From Liolophura sinensis (lineage: Eukaryota; Mollusca; Polyplacophora; Chitonida; Chitonidae): a DNA stretch of 64,000 nucleotides. Below the pieces are notes generated by a model. That model was given only the letters and a program-made list of their open reading frames with translations, made no database searches and had not been told where the DNA came from. The position numbers and the translations under genes were made by a program. The DNA lies in assembly GCF_032854445.1 (NCBI RefSeq), contig NC_088297.1, positions 12,757,039 through 12,821,038 of the forward strand, given 5' to 3'. This document shows positions 1,436 through 63,995 of the stretch, in pieces. Every line of letters begins with the position of its first letter. Position 1 is the stretch's first letter.

Positions 1436-4400
1436 ATACCTTTGATATAGCGGCTCATTACTTTTGCTTCCAGTTAAGGCTAATTGTTCCTTTCTTTGCT
1501 AATGACTCATGCTATTGGGCTTCCTCGGTCCTCTGGGTTTATTGAAGACTGTCCCGAGGGAGGTGCGTCTGACACACTTCACATCCACAGATAGTCTAAT
1601 CACTGCATGTGTGCATTATTTAGAGAGCTTTAATTGAAGCAGTGTCAGAAATATCGTCTGTTGTCATTGTGACAAACAACTACGTCAGGAACAACCCACG
1701 GAGAATATATTTGAGAAGCATGGCCGATAACATATCACTGTTCTTTCTGCCGGTACGTGGGAAGGTCTGTCAGTAACCTGCGGATGGTCATGGGTTTTGT
1801 CAACAAAATGGCTACGTTGGAAATATGAATAGTTCCAATCAAAACGCCACTAATACACATATTCAGATAAACGACAACTTACGGACTAGGATAGTGCAAG
1901 ATTTGAATATTAATTTTTTTTCATTCGGCTAGAACATTTTTTGCGTCTTTCCTTCATCATTTAAAAATGTTGCCTGCTTCTCTATGCATAACGTTCAAAT
2001 TTCTTTCTTTATGTAGGCACACTTTCTTAGCCCCCTGGACTTTAATGGCAGATAAAATACCCAGCCCGGCGTAATTAGAATCCAAATCCCACTGATACCT
2101 GGCGAAGGGCATGGATCTGTATAGAAACTCCGGTTGCTTAACCAATAATCATCACTGACTTCGTAAAATAAATTAAGGGTTCTTTAACACGGCGTTAAAC
2201 TCCAATGAATTGAATAAATATAATTAAAGACCAACAGCTCAGAGAGTGAAAGCAGAGCAACGACGATACTGTGACTGTTATCAAATGGTCGCATGTAACC
2301 TGTGAAATGCGACCACTTCATTTACTATAATTATTATTAGTAATAGTAGCATTAGTATTATTATTTAATTGATTAAATCCTGCAGTTTGCACACACACTC
2401 TTTAAATAGTCCTTCTAACGGGACGCTCTTTGCCCTCCACATGAGACATTTGCACCACTACAGTATGGTAGTAGCACCAACGTTCGCTGTTTACTCAAAT
2501 TGATTCCGAAAACAAACGGTGTAATTGCAAAGCTTTTGAAGCGAAGATAAATTGTCATCGACCAATATAGAGAATAACATTCTCCATAATCGAATCGATT
2601 GCAGTCTCCGTTCTTTGTAACGGTGCCAGATTGTGTGCAAAACAATTGACACAATAAATGTGTGAAAATGTATAATGGAACGTGAATGTGGCGTCCTCCT
2701 TGTCGACTATATAGAGATAATGACGTCCGCATGGCCAAAGGTTTTGACATTGGAGCAGAACTGTACAACAGATGTACGATTTATGTCAAGATAATCCACT
2801 TTGCAATACGTGTGTGGGTGCCTGCATATAGGATTAATCACTTAAAGACACACCAAAAACAGACTACTATATGTTTTTTAATACATGAACCAATATGATT
2901 AAAAATTAATATATTACAAATTGAAATGAGATCACGTTCGGTTGTTTATTTGACAGATTAAAATAAAATCCATTATTGATGCGCCAGTGTTACAAGACAA
3001 AAACCTGCAGTGTGTATAGTACGCCAGAAACGTTTAAATGAACGTTTAGAATCGCCCATAGAAACACCGTTTAACCAGAATTAGGTAAAAAAAAACAAAA
3101 AACAACGCTATGATGTTAACTGAAATTCTTTAGACGTCACAAGTCTAGAATTACACAAACTTCTATATCGTCATTACATTTATAAAACACGAACAAGAAA
3201 ATAATGCTAAGGAACTAGGTGCTTACGCCACTAGCAAAATCAAGGCGCCTAGATATTTGGCCGAAACTATCTAGACTGTAAATGGCAAAACAAATGTATA
3301 GATCTTTCTGCGGAAGGCGTAAAATGATGCTGATATTTTGTCCAGAGCCAGTCTGATCTTCCTATGCAAGGTCTCAAGGCATGTTAAAGTTTTGGCCAGA
3401 ATCAGTCGGAAATTCGTAGTGTCAAATGTTTCAGAACGTGTGGTCTTCTTAATCGTCATGGAAGGTGACAAACCATGTTGATATTTTATCCAAAATTAGC
3501 CATCAAGGCTCCAAAAGAAGTGAGTGCAGGAGAATCTTCCAAATTCCCTGTGCAAGGGGGGATTTGAAACCCTTATCTTGCGTGCAATTGAATCACTCGC
3601 CACGGCCCGCTTTGGCATGACTATTTGAAGGTTAGAAACTAGCAGGACAATGACATGTGTCAGTTAGCAGAAGATGAGACGAAAAAAAGTGCGGAAGAAA
3701 GCTTACCTGATTGAGCCATGCTGATGTATCAGATCTAGTTTAGGAGAAGTGTGGCTTTCTTGCAGCAGTGCTGAATCGACAGCCTCTTTCTTATGCTTGT
3801 CTGTTTGCGACTTCGGCTCCACGAGAGAATTTCACTTGGCTATAATCATGTGTCTCTATAGAAGCGATTGATTGGAAAGAATGGAAGTACACCTGGATCC
3901 TCGTCAAATAGCGAGGGTGGTTTGGGGAGTGAATCTCTGCCGTGTCAGAGATCTGGTCACAAGCTGTCTACCGAGATGATGAATGCGACGCAACCGCTGC
4001 CGAGTTTACGTCGCCGCCCTAGCCCAAAGTCCGAAGCAAGCATGCAGATATGCGTTTGTGTCGGTATGTGGGACGCCAGTTCCGTCTGGAAAGCCCGTTG
4101 TCAGCCCTGAATTAGGTGGCTACCTGGTTAAAAGCTATATCCCCAACAAAACTATATAGCTTATGCTTTTGCTATCTATTGGCGATCGTGCAGACCCAAT
4201 AGTGTATGCCGATATGAGTACAGACAGGGCTTCCGCGACCACTCGGGAAGAGAGTGTGATTATTCCACTGGTTGCCTGGAAATATAGGAACCAATGTTGG
4301 TTCAGCACTGAGGATACCTGTCTAACTGAGCGGATGGCTTAACAGCACTTCCGCGGGTGATAGGATGCGCTCGACGGCAAGCTTGCTGTAAGCTACACTC

Positions 4401-5075
4401 AAATCCTTTGTCACAAGAGCTTGGGAAATACGGGAGGTGGCGTCAGGTGCTTTAGAACGACTATTCTGCCACAGCCAATTAAGTCCAGTCGTACGAGCTA
4501 TTCTGGTTGCTGTTATGTCCGTGTTCCTGGTTGTATCAAGTCCGTGCTAATTATTTAGCACTCTGTCAGTGACCTTTTCACCCAACGAATTGATGGCGAA
4601 TGCAGCAATGAAAGACAGAGTAATCTTTATAAAGGTATTGCCGATTTTCACGACGACCAGTTCAAACTCTCACGTTCCCAAATTGGCGTTTATGTAAATC
4701 GTGTTATGAAATAAGCCGCGATTCCATAAATATCTCTTCTCTGTTATATAGTCGAAAAGGAATGCTTTTATCGGGAGAAACCTGCTCGCCACAGTAAGCC
4801 CGCTAGAGCCGATTCCGGATGAAGATGACGTAAGACGGAGGGCTATCGTATCTATATGCAGACTGCAGACTGGCTTGCGAGCAAATTAAAAGTATCGCTT
4901 TCTGGGCGCACTGAGTGATAATTTCGGTATAAAATCAAACCTCTACCAGACGTTAATTAATATAACGACACCTTGTATAACAAATGAAGCGAATAAAAAG
5001 GTGTCTGACAAATTAATGGTATCGCTTCCTGGACACATTGCTCCCATAACTGCGGGATAAAATTAAACCTATACC

Positions 5076-5076
<1 letters not shown>

Positions 5077-5133
<57 letters not shown>
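5077..5133. repeat. (AT)n microsatellite
   Basis: Pure TA dinucleotides broken once by TATTATA, giving a self-complementary tract. Confidence 0.95.
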
Positions 5134-5138
<5 letters not shown>

Positions 5139-6624
5139 TCTTTTATGTGGAAAACATTGGAAAGTCTTCATGTACAGTTTTACGTTAAAGATAAAATAAA
5201 TCAATAAAATTTCATATTTTAAAATGTACATAGTTTACGCACCTTACTCACCGGTCTTACTCTGTGTGCACAAGCTTGCCGAAGTGTGTCCAGGAAATGC
5301 AGTTTTATTCAATATATTGTTCTGTTAAAAATGAGCCCGAAAATTGTTTGTTAAAAGATGCAATGACCAGACAAGTAAAGTGACAAGAGGAGGGAGGAGA
5401 AAGGCAAAATATAAAGACAGAAAGAAACAAATGAAGAAAATAAAACCACAAATAATGTGTTGGCTTTGTCCAACACATTTTCAGTACGTTTTCTAATGGC
5501 TTTGAATTTTAATCAGTTGCAGATGTATATGGCCCGATTGTTTTCTCTGATATACTCAGTCGTAAATTTAATAAGCAAACAAACCAAACACCACCAGCAA
5601 ACTATAATTATAGAATCCGTATGTAGGCGTAGAAGCTCGCAATCATGGACTGTAACATTCCATGCAGACCAACGATGGTAAGGTAGCGAATCGGTTGCTG
5701 TGCATGGACCTATACGTATCTCAAGAATCGAAGCTGAATTGTTGCTATGCCTGCCAACTGCTGACACTCGCACAAGGCCCATTTGCTGGCTATTGTCTTT
5801 AACAAGTTTCTATATGACAATCAAGTGAACTGCGCTCAAAGCAAGTACTGAGGCGCGTTTATAGTGTATCCGTTTTGGCACTGTATAAGTCATGTAACGA
5901 AAAAGGATATTTCTTGGAACTCGCACCTCGAATGTCCCAGCGATCACATGTTGAAAGATAGGATGTCAACAATTTTAGCGATTGATCGGCCGACTTAAAG
6001 ACCGAAAGACAAAGAGACACACAACTAAATAACTATCGCAGCTAAAGAAATTCACATCATCTAACAACTGATACAATATAAATGACATTTCATGTTATAA
6101 AAGACGACATGTTGGACAGCAAAATCAAAACAGCGATTTATGATGCACATAAACGAAGCTGGCAAATGATAGAAAACGGACCTCTTTCAAATTTACCTCA
6201 TTTAGCGTTTTACACTTACTCTTCATGCGAGATTAGAACAAGTAAACAGGACAGGTTGGCTCATTGACAGTATACATGTAATGCTAAAGAGTGAGGTGTA
6301 CATTGATGGCATGAACTCGCTATGCCACAAGAAAATGCAGTACGCACAGGTAATGACCTCTTGTCATGTGACTGAAATATTCTTAAGTAGCCAAGCATAC
6401 ATACATACTAACTTTTCATATAAATACGCACCAGTAGTAACACTTCAAGCTGCATTATTGTTTACAGATTACATCCTCGATTGCTATTCTTAACATTACA
6501 CCCAACACCACCCTAAACCACCCCACCCCACCCAACCACAAACACACGCAGTCTACCCGAAAACTGAACCCAACAATTTTCTTGTCAAAGCATATAATGA
6601 GATAGGAGAAGAAGAGGATTTAGT

Positions 6625-6881
6625 CGATTGGTGTTTTACGCCGTATTTCACTTATACGACGGCGGCCAGCATTATGGTGGGTGGAAACCAGGCAGAGCTC
6701 AGGGGAAACCCACGACCATCTACAGGTTGATGCCAGACCTTCCCACGTACGGCCGGAGAGGAAGCCAGCATGAGCTGGACTTGAACTCACAGCAACCGCA
6801 TTGGTGATAGGCTTGTGGGTCATTACGCTGCGATAGCGCGCTAACCGACTGAGCCACGGAGGCCCCCTGGCGGCTAAATAG
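6625..6881 (-). mobile_element. SINE-A, near full length, minus orientation
   Basis: In reverse orientation: tRNA-like head (GTGGCTCAGTCGGTTAGCGC and GTGAGTTCAAGTCC as A and B boxes), body with GGCCGTACGTGGGAAGGTCT, and tail GGCGTAAAACACCAATC. The 5' extension (CTATTTAGCCGCCAGGGGG) is shared with the 23.2-kb copy. Confidence 0.85.
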
Positions 6882-7351
6882 GTGGGGCTGCCATCACAAG
6901 GAAGACAGTACTCTTCTCTAGTCCGCAGCAGTGACAACCAGAAGACGAGGTACAAGATACCATGGGGAGGTATACGAAATGAACAGGAAACGATATTTTG
7001 AGAATTAGGCCGAGGCTTGATAATAACAAGAAATTATGGTATGTTAGACAACAGAACAATCAAAACAGCGCATGTAAATTGTGCACCCCGACAAGTCTTG
7101 AATTTATGTCGCAGAGAATCAATGTTGTTTTAGCTTGCATATTATTTTGATAATGTTTTTACCCGCCATGTCCACACGAGTAAAGTTCCTAAGCGCGAGT
7201 AAATGTTTGCGACCTCGAAGATCAGCGGAATCAGTTGTCAACCTGCTGAAAATGAAATAGTGGGAAGAATACCACGTGGCTGTGTGGGTATCTGCTACAT
7301 GATATGGGTATTTGTATATTTCTAATAATTTATTTATCTGTGATATATTTA

Positions 7352-8273: not shown

Positions 8274-31835
<23,562 letters not shown>

Positions 31836-31964
31836 TTTACGCTAGTTGACGAGACTTTCACTGATAGCCTTTCGTTTATCGTCTCTTGATAGGTTAATAC
31901 ACATTCTGCATTTACACTGTTAAAATGTGCGGACAGGCGGTTTTTAGCCAGCCTCTTTGGAATA

Positions 31965-32056
31965 TTTATTTATTTCATTGGTGTTTTGCGCTGTACTCAA
32001 GAATATTTCACTTATACGACGGCGTCCAGCATTATGGTGACGGAAACCGGGAGGAG
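31965..32056 (-). mobile_element. SINE-A 3' fragment
   Basis: CATTGGTGTTTTGCGCTGTA, CTTATACGACGGCGTCCAGC and GGAAACCGGGAGG; head missing. Confidence 0.75.
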
Positions 32057-32124
32057 ACAATCAGAATCCTATGATGTCATTTCCGTTACATATTATTTAT
32101 TTTAGACTTTTTACAAGTTCTTGG

Positions 32125-33260
32125 ATTGGGAGTATGTGTGCTTGTTTGCTTTGCAAATGTTTTTGGCTGCTTTGCTTTCTAATGGTGAATGGCTGCTGGC
32201 TTTGGAATAGTGTGTGGCTGCTGGCTTGTGAATGTGTCTTGGTGCTTGCTAGACAGTGCGTGTGGCTGCTTACTTTGGAAATATGTGGCGATGCTTCTTT
32301 TGTAAATGTGAACCTGCTTAAAAGTACTATGAAAATTATGTCACCTCTTATTTTAAAATGTCTCGCTGCTTGCTTTGTTTATTTGACTGGTGTTTTACGC
32401 TGTACTTTCACTTATACGACGGCGGCCAGCATTATGGTGGGGGGAAACCCGGGGGAAACCCACGACCATCCGCAGGTTGCTGGCAGACCTTTCCACGTAC
32501 GGCCGGAGAGGAAGCCAGCATGAGCTGGACAAACTCAGAGGGACCGCATTGGTGAGACGCTGCTTGCATTGGAAATATGACTCGCTACATGGTTTGGTAA
32601 GGATAACTTTATATACTGTCTTAGTTCTTCGGTTGTTTGTGTTATGTGCCGTTTTAGGAATTAACCTTGCTATTATTGACCTGTTACGTCCTTATTGGCT
32701 GATGGCTAGTATACGAATGTCTGTTTCAACGCATAGATTCTCCCTGCTTGTTTTTGCAATGTTTCTTGCCACTTTCTTCGGAAATACTTCCTCAGCTTGC
32801 TTTGCAAATGTTTCTCGTTACTTGCTTTGCAAATGTTTCTCGTTACTTGCTTTGAAATTGTGTCTGTTTGCTTTTTAAATATTTCTCATTGCTTGCTTGC
32901 ATGGGAAATGCTTCTCTCTTCTTGTTTTGGAAATGCTTCTCCTTGCTTACTTTTGCCAATGCCTTTCACTGTTTGCTTAGAAAATGTTTCTTCCTACTTG
33001 CTTCGCAGATGTGTTTCACTGTTTGCTTTGGGAATATTTCTCACTGATTACATGGGAAATGCTTTTCTCTTCTTGTTTTGCAAATATCTCTCACTGCGTG
33101 CTTTGGAAATGTTTCTTTCTACTTGCTTTGCCAGTGTGTTTCACCGTTTCTTTTGGGAATATTTCTCACTAATTGCCTGGGAAATAGTTTTCACTACGTA
33201 GTTTGGTACGATTTTTCGCTGCTTGTTGTGGAAATGTGGTTCACCAGTGACGTCTATTAA
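32125..33260 (+). repeat. Degenerate 25-27-bp tandem repeats, block 1
   Basis: Dozens of diverged units around TTGCTTTGGAAATGTTTCT or CTGCTTGCTTTGGAAATGTG, interrupted by a SINE-A at 32,382-32,556 and about 200 bp of other sequence. Periodicity leaves long open frames on the plus strand, but they encode only Leu/Cys/Phe repeats and are not taken as genes. Confidence 0.75.
32382..32556 (-). mobile_element. SINE-A inserted in the repeat block
   Basis: GACTGGTGTTTTACGCTGTA to GAGCTGGACAAACTCAGAGG and ACCGCATTGGTGAGACGC; the tRNA-like A box is lost. Confidence 0.8.
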
Positions 33261-33381
33261 GTTGCAATTAAAATCACTGCATTTTTTTTCTTACTTCTGC
33301 TTAAGCCATAGAGCTAGAGGGCATGTAATTTGCTACTATTTATGAACTTACATGAACAGTTAGAATAAAACCCTAACTTTT

Positions 33382-33419
33382 AAATATGGCCTGTGGTAAA
33401 TTTACCACAGGCCATATTT
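33382..33419. repeat. Perfect 38-bp palindrome
   Basis: AAATATGGCCTGTGGTAAA followed immediately by its exact reverse complement, with no spacer. It sits within a dispersed repeat (about 33,315-33,460) whose relative at about 49,080-49,205 lacks the palindrome. Confidence 0.97.
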
Positions 33420-33469
33420 TACCGGTTACGGGTGATCATTTGCCAGCTATCACAATCTGTACGTCTTCA

Positions 33470-33790
33470 TTTTATTGCCTGCTTTGGGAATATGGTTTTC
33501 GCTATTTGCGTTGGTAATGTGTTTTCTGCTGCTTGCTTTGGAAATGTGAATTTCTGCTTGATTTGGGAATGTGACCTTCTGCTTCCTTTGGGAATGTGAT
33601 TTTCTGCTTGCTTTGGAAATGTTACTTTCTGCTTGCTTTGGGAATGTGACCTTTGCTTGCTTTGAGAGTGTAACTTTCTGCTTGCTTTGGGAATGTGACT
33701 TTCCGCTAGCTTTGAGAACGTGTCCTTATGCTTACACAAAAAATGTGCCTCGCTACTTGTTTTGAAAATGTGCCTCGGACTTTGTCTCGA
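33470..33790 (+). repeat. 25-bp tandem repeats, block 2
   Basis: Better preserved units of TTTCTGCTTGCTTTGGGAAT plus GTGAC, about 12 copies. Same family as the block at 32.1-33.3 kb. Confidence 0.88.
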
Positions 33791-34189
33791 AATGGATAAA
33801 TAATTATATTTGTCGTATGTGGAAAAGTCTTATGCATTAGCGACGTAAAACACAAATCAAACCAAATAAATAAATAAATAAGGACACCTTAGATCCTTGT
33901 GGATTTACTACTTCAAATTTATCCGTCTGTGGAATTCATTCGTCTATGATAAACATATACTTGCCGTTCAGAGTATTATAAAACAGGGCGTCTCAATACT
34001 CCTACACTTGTGCAAACTGAAATTTACTCTTATTCAGCCGAGGTAGGTATATTTTTAACAGTGTATCAGTAATTGATTCTGGAAAGGAGGTCGATTGATA
34101 ACGGCATAGCTTTGCCCTTTGTACTTTGTCGCAGTACCTTGAAAAGTCTGTATTAATTATCTGTCTGTATATAGCCTCAGTATATGTAT

Positions 34190-34440
34190 GTATGTATGTA
34201 CGCTTGGGTTTTAACGTCGTACGTACTGATTGTTCATTCATATGACGACGAGGAGTCGTTCGATGTGTGTGTAATGTATCTTCTAGTGGCAGAGCGAGTC
34301 CTTGCAACAAAAGTGCTTCCGCTACTGAAGTACCATGTCGAAGACACCAGACATGACACCCCGTTCAGTCACATTATACGGAGACCAGGCCAACCCATCC
34401 CTATTTCCATGCTCAACCTTTTTATGTCCTTAGTATAATC
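34190..34440 (-). mobile_element. SINE-B copy, minus orientation
   Basis: In reverse: GGTGTCATGTCTGGTGTCTT, CATGGTACTTCAGTAGCGGA, and tail CTCGTCGTCATATGAATGAA ending GACGTTAAAACCC. The tRNA head is missing. Confidence 0.7.
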
Positions 34441-34633
34441 CGACCTGATTTTAATCTCAAATTTCCCGACATCCCGCCATTGCATATACATGTAATAGTC
34501 AGACAAAATTTCCCTATGTAAAGCTCAGGACATCGGCTGTGCAGATCCCACGTTGAAATCATAAAGTGAACCATAAAATATTGCAGCAACACATTTGATG
34601 AAAATAATCGTGTTTGTCTGATCAATGATTTAT

Positions 34634-34857
34634 TTATTTATTTGATTGGTGTTTTAAGTCGTACTCAAGGATATTTCACTTATAAGAGGAACCAGGCAGA
34701 GCCCGGGAAAAACCCACACCCATTCGCAGGTTGGTGACACATACGGCCGGAGAGGAAGCCAGCAAAAGCTGGACTTGAACTCACGGCGACCGTATTGGTG
34801 ACGCTCCTGGGTTATTGCGTCACGCTGGCATGCTAATCCCTCGGCCATGGAAGCCCC
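34634..34857 (-). mobile_element. SINE-A, minus orientation
   Basis: GATTGGTGTTTTAAGTCGTA through AGCTGGACTTGAACTCACGG to a diverged head. The CGGCGGCCAGCATTATGG block is deleted. Confidence 0.8.
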
Positions 34858-35741
34858 TTGTCTGATGAATGAGGGAGTAGGTTCGAATCCAGCCAGGGAG
34901 TTTCAAGTTCGACCTCTTTAACTTCAAAGGGTGGGAAAAAAGTCCTACTGGACCATGTGACATCTCAGAAATGTGAAAAAATTATTTCTTGATTCCATTT
35001 ACTATGATACTATGACAAGTAATCAGTAAAAATGTCATTATAAGTTGCCTCAAACGTCTTTACTCCAAGTTTCTTAATTTTTACACTGAGGTTAATTCTC
35101 CCTGTAGTAAATATGAACAGAGCGTTCAGAATCTCTGCCGTTCTGCCGCATGATTGTGTTTTTATTCAGCTTGGGGCTGTATATTCATCGTGTTAAATTA
35201 GGTCGCCACGTTGGATATATGAACAGTAGCAATCAAGGCGCGACTGAGACACACATTTTGTTATCAACAACTTAAATTCAAACACGGTTTGAAAACTGAT
35301 TTTACACAGTCGCCTAGAACATGCCTTGAGTCTTTTCAACATCACTGAAAACTGTTGACTGCTTTTCTTTTGCATGATTCCGTCCTACTTTCTCAGTTTG
35401 TTTGGTGGTTTGTGTTATCAGTCGTTTTGGGAATTGCATTTATTGAACTCGGACGTCTTGACGGCTGGTATACGAATGTCGTTTTCCGATGCATAGACTC
35501 ACACAATACAATTCATAATGTTAAACTGCAATAAGCTTGTTTCGACACCATTGAACTCATTGCCGTGAGTGTAAGCCACAACAGTCTGGCGATAGTTGAA
35601 TTGAGCATTGTTGATTATAACTAAATTGTTTCCTGAATCTCTAAAACGCGTCATATTGCCTTGGCGCAAGTCATTCCACGTAATAGAATCTCCATGTAAA
35701 CTAGTATATGCACGTTAGGAGACTGCGCGATTTCCTCCTCC

Positions 35742-37159: not shown

Positions 37160-37862
37160 TATAAAGTGTATTCGCTTTCTTTAACATAGAGAGCCTGTAT
37201 AATGTCTTCGACAGATAGCCTGTTTCACGACATCTTACTATAAACTGTATTCGCTTGCTTTAACATATAGAGCCTGTATAATGTCTTCGACAGATAGCCT
37301 GTTTCACGACATCTTACTATAAACTGTATTCGCTTACTGTAACATATAGAGCCTGTATAATGTCTTCAACAGATAGCCTGTTTCACGACATCTAACATAA
37401 ACTGTTTTAGCTTGCTTTAACATACAGATCTTGCAATAATGTCGTCCACAGATATCCTGTTTCACGACATCTTACTATAAACTGTATTCGCTTACTATAA
37501 TATATAGAACCTGTATAATGTCTTCAACAGATAGCCTGTTTCACGACATCTAACATAAACTGTTTTAGCTTGCTTTAACATACAGATCTTGCAATAATGT
37601 CGTCCACAAATATCCTGTTTCACGACATCTTACTATAAATTGTATTCGCTTACTATAATATATAGAACCTGTATAATGTCTTCAACAGATAGCCTGTTTC
37701 ACGACATCTTACTATATACTGTATTCGCTTTCTTTAACATATAGAGCCTGTATAATGTCGTCGACAGATAGCCTGTTTCACGACATCTTACTATAAACTG
37801 TATTCGCTTGCTCTAACATATAGATCTGGCAATAATGCCGTCCACAGATAGACTGTACATAG
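37160..37862 (+). repeat. 79-bp minisatellite, about nine copies
   Basis: Unit: TGTATTCGCTTGCTTTAACA, TATAGAGCCTGTATAATGTC, TTCGACAGATAGCCTGTTTC, ACGACATCTTACTATAAAC. Two variant types alternate: an A type with GAGCCTGTATAATG, and a B type with CATACAGATCTTGCAATAAT. A-B pairs appear to have been amplified together. Confidence 0.93.
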
Positions 37863-52400: not shown

Positions 52401-55400
52401 CTGCGACTGTGCGCATGTGTGTCACTGCTCTCTATGGCAGCGGCAGCGACGATGTTCGCCAGATGCGATGAGACAAAGATCGCCGGAATTTCTGTCTCAT
52501 ACGAGAACGGGTAAGCCCATAAGTGGTTGGTGCAAAACAGTAAAACATTAGATAATCACTGCGTAGAGAACGACCTATACATCATTCATTCTCTGTATTT
52601 CTGGGCTTTCAAGGTACAGCTGACCCCATTATCACAGATGTGGCTAAAGGTGTATTGGTCGTTCTTTACGTAGTGAATGTAGTGCAACCACACCATACCA
52701 TTATATTAGTTAATATGAGATAATCAGGGTATTCCTCAGTTGGATTAAAGTTGTGGCAGAGATAAATCTAATACATCGAAGAAGCGATTGGATAAGGTGT
52801 TTCCCTTTCAATCGCCAAGCCACGTGAGACGTGATTTCAGTATCATTAAGGGACAAAGTACAGTCGCTCCAAAGTGTATTAAAAGTTAGACACAGCTTAG
52901 ATATTTATGGAAAGGTCTAATACAAAACTAATGGCGGTTTATTCCAGACTAAAGTTAATGCCGGCGTTAACTGTTAATACACTTTTGTAACAACTATTTT
53001 TCAATATGCCCCAGCTTCGCTTGTCCTCATGACCATGTTGGCAGTAAGCGGTCGACAATGTGATTTCGTGTACTGTTACATGAAGTTCTCTGGGAACCTC
53101 TTTCCTTCCACCAATATATACGTCACATGTCACACGTGGGAAAATTCGCCAGCATAACGTGCCAAGATTCTGTGGTTTACTCCTGGCACTGAGATTTTCC
53201 TTCACCAGCCATGGTATATTTATGGTTCAGATGGTTAAGGCGATTGTTAGCTCTTGTAATCGTGACTAATGAGAGAGTTTGTTTGAATCCAGCTCTTGCT
53301 GTTTCAACTGCGGCTTTAGGTCAGGAGGTTTGTAGGGTACCTGCCGAAGGGCGGTGGTTTATTCTTGGCTGTCCCGTTTCCTTCGTCCATCAACCAGGCT
53401 GCCGTGTATATATGTATAAGTGTTGTACATGTATATGAGTGAAAACCCTTTGACATGGCGTTAAAGTTAAAGAAAGCTAAAATATGAAGTAAGGTAGACA
53501 ACTGAAAACTATGCGTAACAACACTTTCTTTTAATTTTTTATTATTTTTTTGGAAGGGTGTTGAAAGGCATTCAGATATTTAAATTGTATGATGGGCTTT
53601 ACGAGCCATACTGACAGTATCTAGGAACCAGAAGGAAAGAGTTTTTGAGAACAGTATCTCAGTAGGCTTTTACTCATGGGCGAAAAGAGTTATTCCAACA
53701 TTCAATGTCGTGATTAGAGTTGGAAAAAATTCCTGTGACGTCAGAGTCCCTAATCTCTAATAGCATGGTCCTTAAAGCCCAAATTAGAATTCAAACGTTT
53801 GAACGCTTTTAACTCTCTTCACAAGAATTATAAAAAATAAATGAAAGTACATTTATGCATAGTTTTAAGTGGTCTATTAAGTGATCCCCACTTCGATTTT
53901 TAGACGTTTTAAACACCAATTAATTAAATAAATGAATAAATCTTTCTGCAGCCATACGGCGCCATCCGTGCCTGACCTCTCGTCCAACTGTAATGTCGAC
54001 TGCCACTGTTCTCAGGAGAGTTATCTTCCTGTTTGTGGTCCAAATGGAGTGCAGTACTTCTCGCCCTGTCACGCGGGATGCAGCGAGAATGTTGGAGAGG
54101 TAAGTGTCTCATTGTATCGGAGGCTCAGGAACCGAGTCCACATTGTCATTTCTGATCCTGAAGTCTAAACCGGAAATGCAGTTTTAGAGATTGCTTTTGG
54201 GATTATAGAAATCGACATTTTTTGCTGCTGATAAAAAATTAATGAAGGCTCACAACAAAACTCTTCAGAGGCCTCAAAATTGGTACGCCTGCTCATTTTC
54301 TCTGTTACAACAGATTTACATTTGTATCAGGATCTTCACGCACCCCTGTATTTTTGTTTTGTTACAACAAAACTACCTCTCATGCAGGTGTATTAACAAT
54401 ATGTCATTATCTAACTGCGTATTTCCTGTTACATCAGACTCACCGTATAGTAAAGTGTTTCTCCGTTTCAACAGAATCCTCACGTGCCCCTGAATTTTCT
54501 CTTTTACAACGGAATCCTCACGCGCTCCTATAGTTTCTCTTTTACAACAGAATCGTCACGCGCCCCTGTATTTTCTCTTTCACACAGGAATCCCCACGAA
54601 CCCCTGTGTTTTCTCTTTTACAGAGGAATTCTCACGCGCCCCTGTATTTTCTCTTTTACATAGGAATCCCCAAGAGCCCCTGTTTTTTCTCTTTTACATT
54701 GGAATCCCCACGAACCCCTGTATTTTCTCTTTTACATAGGAATCCTCACGCGCCCCTGTATTTTCTCTTTTACATAGGAATCCTCACGGGCCCCTGTATT
54801 TTCTCTTTTACATAGGAATCCCCACGAACCCCTGTATTTTCTCTTTTACATAGGAATCCCCACGAACCCCTGTATTTTCACTTTTACATAGGAATCCTCA
54901 CGCGCCCCTGTATTTTCTCTTTTACGTAAGAATCCCCACGAACCCCTGTATTTTCTCTTTTACATAGGAATCCTCATGGGCCCCTGTATTTTCTCTTTTA
55001 CATAGGAATCCCCACGAACCCCTGTGTTTTCTCTTTAACATAGGAATCCCCACGAGCCCCTGTATTTTCTCTTTTACATAGGAATCCCCAAGCGCCTCTG
55101 TATTTTCTCTTTTACATAGGAATCCTCACGCGCCCCTGTATGTTCTCTTTTACATAGGAATCCTCATGGGCCCCTCTATTTTCTCTTTTACATAGGAATC
55201 CCCAAGCGCCCCTGTATTTTCTCTTTTACATAGGAATCCCCAAGAGCCCCTTTATTTTCTCTTTTACATTGGAATTCCCACGAACCCCTGTATTTTCTCT
55301 TTTACATAGGAATCCCCACGAGCCCCTGTATTTTCTCTTTTACATAGGAATCCTCACGCGCCCCTGTATTTTCTCTTTTACATAGGAATCCTCGCGCTCC

Positions 55401-58151
55401 CCTGTATTTTCTCTTTTACATAGGAATCCCCACGAACCCCTGTATTTTCTCTTTTACATAGGAATCCCCACGAGCCCCTGTGTTTTCTGTTTTACATAGG
55501 AATCCTCACGCGCCCCTGTATTTTCTCTTTTACGTAGGAATCCCCACGAACCCCTGTATTTTCCCTTTTACATAGGAATCTTCACGCGCCCCTGTATTTT
55601 CTCTTTTACATAGGAATCCCCACGAACCCCTGTGTTTTCTTTTTAACATAGGAATCCTCACGCGCCCCTGTATTTTCTCTTTTACGTAGGAATCCCCACG
55701 AACCCCTGTATTTTCCCTTTTACATTGGAATCTTCACGCGCCCCTGTATTTTCTCTTTTACATAGGAATCCCCACGAACCCCTGTGTTTTCTCTTTAACA
55801 TAGGAATCCTCACGCGCCCCTGTATTTTCTCTTTTACATAGGAATCCTCACGCGCCCCTGTATTTTCTCTTTTACATAGGAATCCCCAAGAGCCCCTGTA
55901 TTTTCTCTTTTACATAGGAATCCCCACGAACCCCTGTGTTTTCTCTTTTACATAGGAATCCCCACGAACCCTTGTGTTTTCTCTTTAACATAGGAATCCC
56001 CACGAGCTCCTGTATTTTCTCTTTTACATAGGAATCCTCACACGCCCCTGTATTTTCTGTTTTACATAGGAATCCTCACGCGCCCCTGTATGTTCTCTTT
56101 TACATAGGAATCCTCATGGGCCCCTGTATTTTCTCTTTTACATAGGAATCCCCAAGCGCCTCTGTATTTTCTCTTTTACATAGGAATCCCCGAGAGCCCC
56201 TGTATTTTCACTTTTACATAGGAATCCTCACGCGCCCCTGTATTTTCTCTTTTACATAGGAATCCCCACGAACCCCTGCATTTTCCCTTTTACATAGGAA
56301 TCCTCACGCGCCCCTGTATTTTCTCTTTTACATAGGAATCCCCACGAACCCCTGTGTTTTCTCTTTAACATAGGAATCCCCACGAGCCCCTGTTCTCTTT
56401 TACATAGGAATCACCAAGCGCCTCTGTGTTTTCTGTTTTACATAGGAATCCTCACGCGCCCCTGTATTTTCTCTTTTACATAGGAATCCTCACGGGCCCC
56501 TGTATTTTCTCTTTTACATAGGAATCCCCAAGCGCCTTTGTATTTTCTCTTTTACATAGGAATCCTTACGCGCCCCTGTATTTTCTTTGTTACCACAGAA
56601 CTACCACTCATGCAGCTGTATAAACAGTACGTCCTCCGTCAACCAGACCGCCGTGAATGGAGTCTGTGAAACGAACTGTCCAATGCTCTATTTCTTCCTA
56701 CCCATGTTCTTCATCGTGATGCTGCTGACTTTCGTGGCCGCTACACCTCTTACGATCAGCACCTTGCGGTAAGTTAATTCAAAACTGTTGCCATTTTTTG
56801 TGGCAGCACATTACGGTAAGTCAGTAAATGCTGTTCACTTTAGTGGGTAGAGAATCCGTTTTGGGGGTAGTAGATCCAGGATCAATCCTGGGTCGGGTTA
56901 CACCTAAGACCTTAAAAAAGAGAAAGTTATAGCTTCTCGCGTGGCGTTCAGCATTAAGGAGATAGTTCAAGGAGAAGGCGTACTTGCCTTCGGTAAGTAA
57001 TCTCAGTGAAGCAGCGCTAGATAAAAAAGGGGTGGATACCCGTCCTGCAACAAGAAGACACATTACACGTACAGACACTCTAAGGACTCCTTCTTCGTCA
57101 TATGACTGAAAAAATTGTTAAGTTAAACCTGAAGCACTCATTCACTCACCTTTGGGTCCGTTATACCGGTAAGCCAGTCAGTGTTACCGACTTTTGTGGG
57201 CGCTACCCCTCTCACGATCAGCAAATTGCGGTAAGTTTTGCTAGTGACGTTTGTGGTCGATGTACCGCTCACGAGCAGCACCTTACATGGTATGCCAGTG
57301 TAGGCTGCATTTTTCTGTAAGGCAATCAGTGTTTCAATGAATCCGGCCGCTACACGTCCCACGATTAGAAATTTGCGGTACCCTAATCAGAGCTGTTGAC
57401 GTTTGTGGCCGCTGACACTTCATGGGTGGTTTCCTCCACCCATGAAACTAACCGCCACAGTGTGTGCTAAAATTCTTGATGATAACGTTGAATCACAATC
57501 AAAAAAATAAATAATTTAGCTTAAAATTGATACTTGTATTATTTTACAGATGCGTGCCGGTGACACATAAAACGTTCGCAGTGGGTGTAATGTGGGTGTT
57601 TGTTCGCTTTTTGGGTAAGTGTTGAGAAAAACTAAAGTAAATTCTACAAATATTATTTCAGCCTGTTTTTTTATGCAAAGCATTTACTTGAGATATGTTG
57701 AATCCCCTGAATATTTTCCTTTCTCAATACAGTTTTACTCTTAAATAAGAGGTGGCGAATAAAATTTTTTGAATTCTCCTTGATCCCTTGAACAGGAACA
57801 GTCCCCGGGCCTATTTTCTTCGGCGTAATCATCGATAGTGCCTGTGTGATATGGAAGAAAAGCTGCGGAAGCTCTGTGAACGAATCTTGTTGGATTTACA
57901 ACAATGAAACCATGGGGAGAAACTTTTTTCTAGTTGCTCTTGGTGTGAAGTTTTTATCAACATTTTTGTTCGGTCTTGGTAGCATTGTCTACAAAGCGCC
58001 ATCTATAAACAAGGAGAATAACCTTGACATTGCTACAATAGAAGTTGAGAGCAATAGATCCAAAGTTACTGACCCACTAAGTAATACTGAATCATATAGA
58101 AGCCTCAACTCAGAGAAAATGGGAGTTGACAATCCAGGGTACTTGTCTTAA
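46236..58151 (+). CDS. Organic anion transporting polypeptide (SLCO/OATP) gene, 11 coding exons
   Basis: The product would be a 12-helix plasma-membrane carrier for amphipathic organic anions (sodium-independent in characterised OATPs). Eleven exons join with GT-AG borders and correct phase into 684 codons ending in TAA, a normal OATP length. Evidence: NPKCLCVL then VVNGINNV (helix 1 region), [52 protein letters not shown], and the superfamily signature [10 protein letters not shown] at residues 258-267. A Kazal-like cysteine-rich loop follows (C-H-CSQE-Y-PVCGPNG-Y-SPCHAGC plus [12 protein letters not shown]). The signature has DPGW where most family members have DxRW. Which SLCO subfamily is not decided, so no symbol is given. 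No AATAAA was seen close downstream; ATTAAA at 59,485 is one candidate. Confidence 0.95.
47045..47245 (+). repeat. Direct repeat downstream of SLCO exon 1
   Basis: Second copy of the repeat at 45,885-46,090, diverged by substitutions and small indels. It lies in intron 1. Confidence 0.65.
47598..47876 (+). CDS. SLCO exon 2
   Basis: Acceptor TTTAATAG/GTTT, donor ACAG/GTAAAG. Encodes [20 protein letters not shown], then [20 protein letters not shown], ending in an extracellular loop ([15 protein letters not shown]). It covers helices 1 to 3 of the OATP fold. Phase 1 at both ends. Confidence 0.94.
48078..48345 (+). mobile_element. SINE-B copy, plus orientation
   Basis: GGATCAAACCCGGGTAAGGT (B box), GGTCATACCAAAGACTTTAA, CTTGGCGCTCAGCACTGAGA, CACAAGAAGACACAGTATAT. 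The centre of the family is deleted. In SLCO intron 2. Confidence 0.72.
48445..48612 (+). CDS. SLCO exon 3
   Basis: Acceptor TTTGCAG/GCAA, donor GTGG/GTAAGA. Encodes [20 protein letters not shown] then [20 protein letters not shown], matching the LGQ-L-G-G-T-GI-Y-DD-V-K-SP-Y pattern around helix 4 of OATPs. Confidence 0.94.
48763..48816 (+). mobile_element. SINE-A tail fragment
   Basis: GCCGTCCCATAAGTGAAATA, TTCTTTAGTTGGGTGTAAAA, TACCAATCAAAATAAATAAA; only the last 50 bases of the family. Confidence 0.75.
49230..49558 (+). mobile_element. SINE-C, near full length
   Basis: Head ATAGCACAATTTGTAGAGCG, then GGATCAATCCTTGGTCGAAT, CTTACTTGCCTTCGGTGAGT, GCGACAAGGAGGCACATTAC, tail CGTAGTCATATGACCGAAAA. 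In SLCO intron 3. Confidence 0.85.
49665..49761 (+). CDS. SLCO exon 4
   Basis: Acceptor CATTCCAG/GTAT, donor TCCAG/GTAAAC (phase 2). Encodes [20 protein letters not shown], the conserved GPA-GF-LG helix of OATPs, followed by [12 protein letters not shown]. Confidence 0.94.
50184..50384 (-). CDS. Unidentified hydrophobic open frame antisense in SLCO intron 4
   Basis: A 66-codon frame whose composition looks protein-like: a polar start, then [20 protein letters not shown] and a second apolar stretch ([20 protein letters not shown]). I do not recognise the family. It could be an exon of an unannotated gene or a decayed gene fragment, or chance. Splice sites are not convincing on either side. 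Confidence 0.25.
   Translation of the reverse strand: MKHIHRLKGFEPKLWCLQLIPVFTMTIGNLVLMYCNSMVNLAWTWVATVLVPQLLPNSDQSGHLDH
50432..50553 (+). CDS. SLCO exon 5: OATP signature
   Basis: Acceptor TTTGTGCAG/TGTA, donor CCTG/GTGAGT. Encodes [20 protein letters not shown] then a helix ending [18 protein letters not shown] is the diagnostic superfamily signature between helices 5 and 6; the Gly before W replaces the usual Arg. The correct frame differs from the longest open frame over this stretch. Confidence 0.95.
50824..50998 (+). mobile_element. SINE-A, degraded, headless
   Basis: GAGTTCAAATCCACGCTCAT (B box), GACTTCCTCTCCGGTCGTGG, TGCTGGCCGCCCTACTATAA, tail GCGTAAAACCCCAGTGAAAT. In SLCO intron 5. 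Confidence 0.75.
51385..51636 (+). CDS. SLCO exon 6
   Basis: Acceptor TTTCTAG/GAGC, donor ATGG/GTGAGT. Encodes the large cytosolic loop ([15 protein letters not shown]), then [20 protein letters not shown] and the helix 7 region [27 protein letters not shown]-type loops at this place are normal for OATPs. Confidence 0.94.
52315..52510 (+). CDS. SLCO exon 7
   Basis: Acceptor TTGTTACAG/GTGT, donor ACGG/GTAAGC. Encodes [20 protein letters not shown] (GxxxxPGA-G-LGG, helix 8) and [20 protein letters not shown] (helix 9), leading into the extracellular loop. Confidence 0.94.
53215..53475 (+). mobile_element. SINE-E copy
   Basis: TGGTTCAGATGGTTAAGGCG (A box), GTTTGAATCCAGCTCTTGCT (B box), GGTACCTGCCGAAGGGCGGT, tail TTTGACATGGCGTTAAAGTT. 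Homologous in order to the split copy at 43.2 kb. In SLCO intron 7. Confidence 0.75.
53952..54099 (+). CDS. SLCO exon 8: first half of Kazal-like loop
   Basis: Acceptor TTTCTGCAG/CCAT, donor GAGAG/GTAAGT, phase 0 at the end. Encodes [20 protein letters not shown] then [20 protein letters not shown], the cysteine-rich Kazal-like extracellular loop 5 of OATPs. The loop is completed in exon 9, 2.5 kb away across a minisatellite. Confidence 0.95.
54361..54411 (+). pseudogene. Decayed copy of the start of SLCO exon 9
   Basis: GTTACAACAAAACTACCTCT, then CATGCAGGTGTATTAACAAT and ATGTC align without gaps to the true acceptor and first bases of exon 9 (56,589 onward) at most positions. The acceptor AG is changed to AA, so it should not splice. 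Even the upstream CACGCACCCCTGTATTTT context is shared. Confidence 0.8.
54474..56586 (+). repeat. 38-bp minisatellite of 3'-splice-site-like units, about 55 copies
   Basis: Consensus unit ACATAGGAATCCTCACGCGC plus CCCTGTATTTTCTCTTTT. Across each unit boundary it reads TTTTCTCTTTTACATAG/GAAT, a pyrimidine tract plus AG. The earliest units read TTTTACAACAG/AATC. Units alternate among sub-variants (CACGCG, CACGAA, CAAGAG, CATGGG). It fills most of SLCO intron 8 up to a few bases from the exon 9 acceptor. Confidence 0.97.
56599..56768 (+). CDS. SLCO exon 9: second half of Kazal-like loop and helix 10
   Basis: Acceptor TTACCACAG/AACT, donor TTGCG/GTAAGT. Encodes [13 protein letters not shown], then VCETNC and a hydrophobic helix ([20 protein letters not shown]). 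Its first bases have a decayed copy at 54,361-54,411, and its last bases have several decayed copies in the next intron. Confidence 0.95.
56793..56824 (+). pseudogene. Decayed copy of the end of SLCO exon 9 (copy 1)
   Basis: TTTTTTGTGGCAGCACATTACG/GTAAGT resembles the last bases of exon 9 plus its donor, with an internal deletion. It starts 25 bases after the true donor. Confidence 0.55.
56830..57140 (+). mobile_element. SINE-C, near full length
   Basis: GTAGATCCAGGATCAATCCT, GGTCGGGTTACACCTAAGAC, TACTTGCCTTCGGTAAGTAA, CCTGCAACAAGAAGACACAT, tail TTCTTCGTCATATGACTGAA. In SLCO intron 9, between decayed exon 9 copies. Confidence 0.82.
57190..57386 (+). pseudogene. Three or more decayed copies of the end of SLCO exon 9
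   Basis: Copy 2 (57,190-57,230) translates as [14 protein letters not shown] beside the true [14 protein letters not shown] and keeps the donor TTGCG/GTAAGT in the same phase. Copy 3 (57,247-57,289) reads CGTTTGTGGTCGATGTACCG to CACCTTACATG/GTATGC. Copy 4 (57,343-57,376) reads GGCCGCTACACGTCCCACGA to TTTGCG/GTACCC. A further partial copy follows at 57,397-57,417. None has an obvious acceptor. Confidence 0.8.
57550..57614 (+). CDS. SLCO exon 10
   Basis: A short exon: acceptor ATTTTACAG/ATGC, donor TTGG/GTAAGT. Encodes [20 protein letters not shown], equivalent to the RxV---KSFALG-Q-----LG segment between helices 10 and 11. Confidence 0.9.
57796..58151 (+). CDS. SLCO exon 11: C-terminus and stop
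   Basis: Acceptor TTGAACAG/GAAC. Begins [20 protein letters not shown], the conserved IPGPI-FG--ID--C--W block, followed by the last helix ([20 protein letters not shown]) and a polar cytosolic tail ending NPGYLS then TAA. The tail is rich in Ser and Asn. Confidence 0.95.
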
Positions 58152-58439: not shown

Positions 58440-59330
58440 AAAATGCTATGAGCCAATGCCAAAATGCTTTACAAAGTGACATGTGGTTCTTGATTCGCTA
58501 TTGTTCCAAGGGTCTGTCCAAGCATTCGGCATAAACACTGCTGAGCGTTGGATGAATACGATGCCTATTTCGTCACGGTTCTTGGAGTCTTTCAGCCAAG
58601 CAATGTATGCAATATTCGGCTGAAATTCAACGAAGCTTCTACAGCAATGCTGTGCATGTTCCATACATTATGTGATTCACGTTTCGCCATGGTTACAGAA
58701 GTTTATGTGGTATTGTGCATGGAATATGGTGAAAATTCCAGAAATGTCTATATGTCCCAAGCATTGTATGATTCATGATGCGTTATGGTTTGTCAAGCAT
58801 TGTACATGAATAATGCTGAAAATTCCAGGAATGTCTATATGTCCCAAGCATTGTGTAACTCACTATTCGCTATGGCTCCAGGAGCTTGTCAAGGGTTGTA
58901 CATGAATAATGCTAAAAATTCCAGGAATGTCTATATGTCTCATACATTCTGTGGTTCACGATTGGCTATGGCTCCAAGAGCTTATCAAGTATTGTACATG
59001 GATGATACCAAAATTCCAGGAATCTGTACATGTCCCATGGGTTGTGTGATTCGCTCTATGGCTCCAGGAGCTTGTCAAGTATTATACATGGATGATGCTG
59101 AAAATTCCAGGAATGTCTACATGTCCCATGGGTTGTGTGATTCACAATTCGCTATGGCTCCAGGAGCTTATCAAGTATTGTACATGGATGATACCGAAAT
59201 TCCAGGAATCTGTACATGTCCCATGGGTTGTGTGTTTCACTCCATGGTTCCAGAAGCTTGCCAACTATTGTGCATAGACTATGTTGGATTGTCTACATGT
59301 ATACCAACCATTATGTGATACCAGATTCGT
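58440..59330 (+). repeat. Degenerate 96-bp tandem repeats
   Basis: Unit: GCTATGGCTCCAGGAGCTTG, TCAAGTATTGTACATGGATG, ATGCTGAAAATTCCAGGAAT, GTCTACATGTCCCATGGGTT, GTGTGATTCAC. About seven recognisable units from 58,680 and weaker ones on either side. A 177-codon frame exists only because the unit length is a multiple of three. Confidence 0.88.
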
Positions 59331-60407: not shown

Positions 60408-61138
60408 ATTTTTATGTTGTATGGTTGTTAGTCATCAAGTGATGTATGCAAATCACTTTTTATGTTGTATGGTTGTTAGTCATCAAGTGATGTATGCAAA
60501 TCACTTTTTATGTTGTATGGTTTTTTAGTCATCAAGTGATGTAGGGAAATCATTTTTTATGTTGTATGGTTGTTAGTCATCAAGTGATGTATGCAAATCA
60601 CTTTTTATGTTGTATGGTTTTTTAGTCATCAAGTGATGTAGGGAAATCACGTTTTATGTTGTATGGTTGTTAGTCATCAAGTGATGTATGGAAATCACTT
60701 TTTATGTTGTATGGTTTTTTAGTCATCAAATGATGTGGGGAAATCACTTTTTATGTTGTATGGTTTTTTGGTCATCAAGTGATGTATGGAAATCATTTTT
60801 TATGTTGTATGGTTGTTAGTCATCAAGTGATGTATGCAAATCACTTTTCATGTTGTATGGTTTTGTAGTCATCAAGTGATGTAGGGAAATCATTTTTTAT
60901 GTTGTATGGTTTTTTAGTCATCAAGTGATGTAGGGAAATCACTTTTTATGTTGTATGGTTGTTAGTCATCAAGTGATGTATGCAAATCACTTTTTATGTT
61001 GTATGGTTTTGTAGTCATCAAGTGATGTATGCAAATCACTTTTTATGTTGTATGGTTTTTTAGTCATCAAGTGATGTATGCAAATCACTTTTTATGTTGT
61101 ATGGTTGTTAGTCATCAAGTGATGTATGCAAATCACTT
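60408..61138 (+). repeat. 47-bp minisatellite, about 15 copies
   Basis: Unit: TTTTATGTTGTATGGTTGTT, AGTCATCAAGTGATGTATGC, AAATCAC. Two variant types, GTTGTTAG...TATGCAAAT and GTTTTTTAG...TAGGGAAAT, are interspersed. Confidence 0.96.
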
Positions 61139-61163
61139 TCGAACAATATTTCGTCCATTCATG

Positions 61164-61648
61164 TACGATGCTAGGATTTATACTGTTACTATAAGGCAAT
61201 GTTTATTTATTTATTGATTTGATTGGTGTTTTACGCCGTTCTCAAGAATATTTCACTTATACGACGGCGGTCAGCATTATCGTGGGAGGTAACTGGGCAT
61301 ATACCGGGGAAAACCCACGACCATGCGCAGGTTGGTGAAGACCTTCCCACGTACGGCCGGAGAGGAAGCCAGCGTGAGCTGGACTTGAACTCACAGCGAC
61401 CGCATTGGTGAGAGGCTCTTGGGTCATTGCGCTACGCTAGCTTGCCGACCAACTGAGCCACGGAGACCCCTATAAGGCAATGTCGTGTCATATTCAATAT
61501 AATTTCGTGTTATTCTAATAGAATCGTTATCTTGAATTAACAGAATTTGTTACTTTTAACAGAATAATCTGCTGTAATAACAGAATACATTCTAGCATTA
61601 CTCATATAACAGACTTTCAGTTAAATTTAACAAATTATTTTTTGAGTG
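61164..61648. mobile_element. MITE M1 interrupted by a SINE-A
   Basis: Left part (GATGCTAGGATTTATACTGT) and right part (ATATTCAATATAATTTCGTG to CATTCTAGCATTACTCATAT and TTTTTTGAGTG) together match other M1 copies. The right end is followed by TA. The 21-bp sequence AACAATATTTCGTCCATTCAT occurs exactly on both outer flanks (61,143 and 61,683). Confidence 0.78.
61203..61469 (-). mobile_element. SINE-A, full length, nested in MITE M1
   Basis: Complete minus-orientation element with a 14-bp perfect target duplication CTATAAGGCAATGT at 61,189-61,202 and 61,470-61,483. Confidence 0.95.
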
Positions 61649-63534: not shown

Positions 63535-63995
63535 TAGTGTTACCATTTTATTGTATGATATGAAGTTGTGCGTTTTTATTGTAACATTACAAGTTGTGCC
63601 GTTTCATTGTAGCAGATCTAGTTATACCGTTTTATTGTAACATTTCATGCTGTATCGTTTTATTGTAACATATCCAACTGTACAGCTTTATTGTAACATA
63701 TCAGGTTGTACCGTTTTATTGTAACATATCCAGTTGTACAGCTTTATTTGTAACATATCAAGTTGTACCGTTTTATTGTAATATTTCAAGTTGTACCGTT
63801 TTATTGTAACATATCCAATTGTACAGCTTTATTTTAACATATCAAGTTGTACCGTTTTATTGTAACATTTCAAGTTGTACCGTTTTATTGTAAAATATCC
63901 TGTTGTACCGCATATACAGTTGTAGGCCTACAGTTTTTTCTGTAACGTGGCCAGTTTGTACTGCTTTTTTGTACCATATACAGTTTTATTATTTA
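63535..63995 (+). repeat. 28-bp minisatellite, about 15 copies, reaching the window edge
   Basis: Unit: GTACCGTTTTATTGTAACAT plus ATCAAGTT, with a CAGCTTTATTG variant about every second unit. The array runs to the end of the window and may continue. Confidence 0.93.

Follow-up and report, generated by a model that had tools for sequence, protein, structure and literature searches.

The window, as the 64,000-nucleotide stretch of the chiton Liolophura sinensis genome analysed here is called below, contains an SLCO/OATP gene whose 11 coding exons join into a single frame of 684 residues with an OATP domain and a Kazal-like loop. Several of its exons match PF03137, and the product of exons 8–11 matches SLCO2A1 chains (best E 2.4e-29) as well as SLCO1C1, 6C1 and 1B chains. 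The preliminary description had assigned a long tandem array to intron 8 of an SLCO gene, and the 684-residue frame, the PF03137 matches and the SLCO2A1 match bear out that assignment. The features around intron 8 are as follows.

53952–54099, forward strand: exon 8, the first part of the Kazal-like loop, with the phase-0 donor GAG/GTAAGT (gene model, homology)
54329–54405, forward strand: fossil copy that joins the 3' end of intron 8 to the opening 35 nt of exon 9, the latter at 54371–54405 (BLAST 82%, E 4.6e-11)
54474–56559, forward strand: the 55 decoys, 38 bp each save one of 34 bp, with a pyrimidine tract followed mostly by ACATAG (TRF, unit alignment, AG scoring)
56522–56559, forward strand: the decoy unit nearest to exon 9, with its AG at 56558–56559, the sole in-frame, stop-free alternative acceptor (+39 nt)
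56560–56598, forward strand: terminal 39-bp unit, with a branch-point-like CTTAC motif (A 31 nt from the unit end), a pyrimidine tract, and CCACAG as the true acceptor
56599–56768, forward strand: exon 9, 170 nt, with the donor GCG/GTAAGT (gene model), matched at 100% identity by the locus's second copy
57182–57237, forward strand: fossil of the exon 9 3' end and donor (BLAST 88%, E 2e-9; exon part scoring 62 against a shuffle maximum of 31)
57239–57292, forward strand: second fossil of the exon 9 3' end (score 50, shuffle maximum 26)
57345–57398, forward strand: third fossil of the exon 9 3' end (score 55, shuffle maximum 30)

Away from this intron, the window holds dispersed repeats of about 160–275 bp that are 85–95% identical to one another (6644–6884, 13366–13619, 22732–22991, 23149–23415, 30748–31018 and 61202–61470) and partly open in several frames. 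Exon-like open frames also lie on the minus strand at 24179–35714; by eye they resemble a saposin-domain sphingomyelin phosphodiesterase. Elsewhere in the genome, eight functional-unit matches in tandem mark a mollusc haemocyanin locus (G000:C8:37880506-37891931). This locus agrees with a mollusc source; a lancelet was considered and rejected, a search for GFP-family proteins having given no match (a weak negative, since no control gave a signal), and an annelid marker likewise had no match, again with a silent control.

In the window, TRF reports a 38-bp tandem array at 54474–56593 (55.9 copies, 88% matches, score 3141), which wraparound alignment resolves into 56 head-to-tail units filling 54474–56598. 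Unit 51 is only 34 bp long, and the terminal unit, at 39 bp through one extra C, is itself the true exon 9 acceptor. The last two bases are AG in 50 of the 56 units and something else in the remaining six, and a branch-point-like yUnAy motif is found 18–45 nt before the unit end in 25 of the 56, the last one included. According to the unit alignment, the 38-bp units contain no exon 9 sequence and stop at the junction. A single match to the donor-type motif GTRAG was found inside the array, at 54926. An array of some 55 units, each with a pyrimidine tract and an AG, standing directly before a real 3' splice site, had been noticed at the outset, and TRF and the unit alignment agree with that reading.

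Where did the unit come from? Derivation from the 3' end of the same intron, as originally proposed, is upheld by the fossil upstream of the array and by the distribution of the unit, which among the best candidates scored in the genome is confined to this array and its counterpart in the duplicated locus. The upstream fossil (54329–54405) matches 56558–56633 and has AA in place of the acceptor AG. Its exon part starts at base 1 of exon 9, and this coding part alone scores 50 against a shuffle maximum of 42, a score reached by 0 of 500 shuffles; the fossil is present in the second copy too. On the other side of exon 9, the fossil at 57182–57237 keeps an intact GTAAGTT donor. No duplicates of this type were found at three other exon–intron pairs of the SLCO gene that served as controls. 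One detail of the original proposal does not hold, namely that the first units are the nearest to the true site. When entire units are compared, units 1–3 rank 26th, 38th and 18th of 55, and the closest are units 8, 24, 36, 37, 47, 49 and 53 (87% identity). When the comparison is confined to the last 18 nt, the best match is unit 31, and units 1, 3 and 4 tie with others.

The locus is found twice. About 15 kb (51393–66096) is repeated downstream on the contig at 66363–79331 in window coordinates, mostly at 95–98% identity, with a gap of 200 N between the copies. The first block stops right at this gap, the second continues further, and the 66 bases directly behind the gap have no match. The array has 56 units in the first copy versus 21 in the second, a difference of 35, and the last decoy and the true acceptor have the same layout in both. 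Exon 9 is identical in the two copies, and across exons 8–11 there are four nucleotide changes, two of which change an amino acid. Exons 6 and 7 of the second copy, near the contig start, carry 1-nt indels, which may be errors or decay. A gap of 200 N and a block that ends at it form the pattern of two overlapping haplotype contigs, and the second copy is probably the other haplotype, left beside the first when the contigs were placed side by side. A real tandem duplicate is nevertheless possible, since the copies diverge by 2–5% outside the array, which exceeds the 1.24% heterozygosity given in the chiton assembly paper, and since only 0.9% of BUSCOs are listed there as duplicated (PMC11068029; the species named in that paper has been corrected to Liolophura sinensis, PMC12441733). 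The unmatched 66 bases and the indels in exons 6 and 7 also speak against the two-haplotype reading.

The array lengths bear on the suggestion that unit number could tune exon 9 inclusion. That suggestion is unsupported: a copy with 21 units has an identical exon 9 and the same acceptor layout, which argues against such tuning and makes it look unlikely.

How strong are the units as acceptors? AGs were scored with a small matrix, built from the nine real acceptors of the SLCO gene (exon 9 excluded) and a prior; this matrix is not equivalent to MaxEntScan. With the two blended, 49 of the 72 decoy AGs at 54474–56598 score at least as high as the true acceptor of exon 9, and with the prior alone 35 do. 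The remainder of the window yields 82 such AGs among 3231, or 1.3 per kb versus 23 per kb in the array, and 100 mononucleotide shuffles of the array gave a mean of 5.7 and a maximum of 13. With so many decoys scoring at or above the true site by this matrix, the units resemble competitive 3' splice sites, and their description as splice-acceptor-like decoys stands.

The reading frame was followed for every candidate site. Starting at the exon 8 donor and counting the true acceptor, there are 91 AGs, and only the true site and the AG at 56559 leave the frame open; the remaining 89 lead to a premature stop. Likewise, 2 of 48 AGs keep the frame open in the second copy. The idea that the array could insert short peptides thus fails for 89 AGs and is possible, frame-wise, for 56559 alone, the use of which would add 39 nt, or 13 residues. 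The insert, ESSRARVFSLLPQ in its second-copy version, differs between the copies at two of the 13 residues. In the alignment, the SLCO2A1 chain 9qzo_A has six extra residues no more than one residue from the exon 8/9 junction, which makes a short insert at this point structurally plausible. The locus may be described as a splice-boundary array, perhaps with leaky +39-nt splicing.

Variation among the units gives no sign of selection on the unit AG, which is altered seven times among the 55 decoys (five times at the A and twice at the G), these positions being no less variable than the pyrimidine tract. In the first copy, the tract has a mean of 1.6 changed units per position versus 5.3 in the upstream half (of 55 units); the corresponding values in the second copy are 0.5 and 2.3 (of 20). 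The quietness of the tract could be a hint of constraint, or could merely reflect a few two-state positions upstream, which account for much of the variation in the upstream half.

Related arrays occur in other members of the gene family. In the same intron of the SLCO paralog L040, an array of 20 copies of 89 bp (4257–6031) repeats the last part of exon 8 together with the donor; its first copy sits in the true exon, and the result is a series of decoy donors, the mirror image of the array in the window. The paralog L030 has, on the minus strand at 1840–2300, 6.8 copies of a 68-bp unit that spans an acceptor, made of the intron end (mostly CAG; TTCAACAAGGTCCAG) plus a few exonic nucleotides (in the best copy, eight to nine). 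In L042, also an SLCO paralog, a pyrimidine-rich array with periods of 25–50 bp (2598–3202) ends about 16 nt before exon 8, and its consensus unit is without an AG. No array of three or more copies was found across the stretch from exon 7 to exon 11 of the closest paralog, L039.

Are arrays in this genome drawn to splice boundaries? Counting overlaps, 39 family loci (130 kb) hold 32 arrays, 31 of them distinct; these loci partly overlap, since L019 and L031 share one array and L036 lies within the window, and L043 and L044 were left out. Six neighbourhoods of an array and an exon were inspected in sequence (L030, L057, L021, L033, L053 and L060). The L021 array overlaps a profile match only because that match extends into the intron, and in L033, L053 and L060 no boundary copies were found by eye. 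(In L057, a 47-bp array at 1672–2009 begins about 15 bp past the donor of an ABC-transporter exon, the donor not being included.) Among 56 SLCO boundaries, five of them placed by hand correction, six have a local duplicate, five a duplicate that reaches the junction and three one that spans it, and of the five that reach it two belong to exon 9 itself and one (L041 E10d) looks like a T-rich chance match. The corresponding counts for 400 random intron points are 116, 112 and 103. By this comparison, 5 of 56 versus 112 of 400, local duplicates are no more frequent at splice boundaries than at the random points, because intron interiors are full of arrays. A count of seeds gives three of nine arrays in 26 introns touching a boundary where 1.13 are expected (P 0.049), a marginal, post hoc figure that includes the array in the window. 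The simplest account would be a minisatellite-rich genome in which some seeds happen to land on splice boundaries. Further minisatellites of the window, with periods of 25–186 bp, lie at 32738–33772, 37160–37824, 58790–59275, 60409–61139 and 63541–63910.

The closest known parallel is provided by the "mirages" of lancelets, minisatellite-like duplications at exon–intron boundaries described for Adh3, troponin C, the globins BflGb6 and BflGb9, and PGBD5 (PMC3087553, PMC3902484). Mirages lie on the acceptor or the donor side and many of their copies carry splice signals; that of BflGb6 has six units on one haplotype and three on the other, and they are reported to leave regular splicing undisturbed (PMC3087553, PMC3902484). 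The chiton array is likewise a tandem repeat at an exon–intron boundary with copies of splice signals. Whether its 56 and 21 units are allelic lengths depends on the second copy, which is probably the other haplotype but diverges from the first by more than the published heterozygosity. The 38-bp unit of the array is intronic, and the fossil at 54329–54405 is the only piece that spans the boundary; since the unit ends at the junction, the array is better regarded as a variant of the mirages than as a member. The arrays of L040 and L030, by contrast, do span a boundary. The chiton array differs also in its mollusc host, in being known from sequence alone, and in its 56 units, more than in the globin cases quoted.

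Other systems are more distant. In the minisatellite of human IFI6 (6-16) there are multiple donors, and two downstream units are said to be used (PMC4526556, citing Turri et al. 1995); minisatellite units act as splice sites there, and those of the chiton are acceptor-like by sequence, but the IFI6 sites are donors and are reported to be used. Tandem duplication of an acceptor boundary can also create introns, and such a duplication similarly copies a putative branch site, tract and AG; the outcome in that case is a new intron, whereas the array here lies inside an existing one with no sign of a new exon. Human variable internal tandem repeats show that minisatellite expansion, sometimes at exon–intron boundaries, alters gene structure (PMC2812944), but these have about four units of 30 bp and occur in recent primate duplicates, and half of them lie in coding sequence (PMC2812944). 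Among the matches listed in the non-subscription literature, boundary minisatellites named as such come from lancelets only, beside work on human tandem repeats, plant intron gain and IFI6.

The most probable reading, to which a probability of about three in four may be given, is that of a tolerated splice-boundary minisatellite, akin to the lancelet mirages, in a minisatellite-dense genome. A small tandem duplication would have taken in the 3' end of intron 8 and, in one instance, the beginning of exon 9 as well. Unequal exchange or slippage would then have multiplied the 38 bp of intron, giving 56 units on one copy and 21 on the other, and the units would have an AG and a pyrimidine tract because they were copied from a working acceptor. 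Exon definition would allow the array to be tolerated: the acceptor unit that touches exon 9, 170 nt from the donor, would win, and the upstream units would be used rarely. Splicing to the farther AGs would run into a stop and probably lead to nonsense-mediated decay, and occasional use of the nearest decoy would place 13 in-frame residues beside the point at which the SLCO2A1 chain has a longer loop.

Could the nearest decoy instead be a real, regulated alternative acceptor? Two forms of exon 9, with and without 13 residues in the Kazal-like extracellular loop, would then be made. The 39-nt spacing is in frame and free of stops in both copies, the decoys are of similar matrix strength, and 9qzo_A has its additional residues near this very junction. 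However, the frame would be kept by chance one time in three, and the insert, at which the copies differ in two residues, is without other coding support, so that a regulated acceptor appears unlikely. An extended version, a working multi-acceptor in which the nearest unit gives the second SLCO isoform, the farther units give transcripts that decay and the number of units (56 versus 21) sets the ratio, appears improbable. If it were true, the array would serve a single transporter as an analogue dial, produced by a boundary-minisatellite process that recurs in the gene family. Decoys might also act as a length-dependent brake on splicing, either by titrating the U2 auxiliary factor or through decay transcripts that lower SLCO output with copy number. 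Decoys as strong as the true site, the premature stops behind 89 of 91 AGs and the two array lengths are in keeping with such a brake. On the other hand, the two copies share their layout next to the exon, and lancelet mirages are reported, in the accounts given in PMC3087553 and PMC3902484, without disturbance of splicing. A brake of this kind is, on balance, decidedly improbable.

Two remaining explanations concern the array as transcript and as assembled sequence. Once transcribed, it might soak up a PTB-type splicing repressor, a binder of pyrimidines, in the manner of a sponge: YUCUYY motifs, which are PTB-like, have a density of 44.6 per kb in the array versus 3.3 per kb in the other introns of the gene. 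However, this density arises because one pyrimidine tract is repeated, CUCUCU is absent from the array and only one gene is involved; a sponge is exceedingly improbable. As for an artefact of assembly that inflated or collapsed the unit count, coverage is low, at 14x with a mean read of 8,347 bp according to the assembly paper (PMC11068029), and a contig-level duplication adjoins. On the other hand, a HiFi read of mean length exceeds the 2.1 kb of the array, and the same architecture appears in two copies of the locus; the chance of such an artefact is very small.

The array appears to add a mollusc to the lancelets as hosts of splice-boundary minisatellites, with donor-side and acceptor-side arrays in one gene family. 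Of most interest is whether splicing ever goes to 56559, the only decoy that keeps the frame open. With dozens of near-identical acceptors of equal score ahead of the true site, and with arrays of two lengths occurring naturally, the locus would lend itself to asking how one 3' splice site is chosen over its equals by virtue of lying close to the exon and to the exon's donor.
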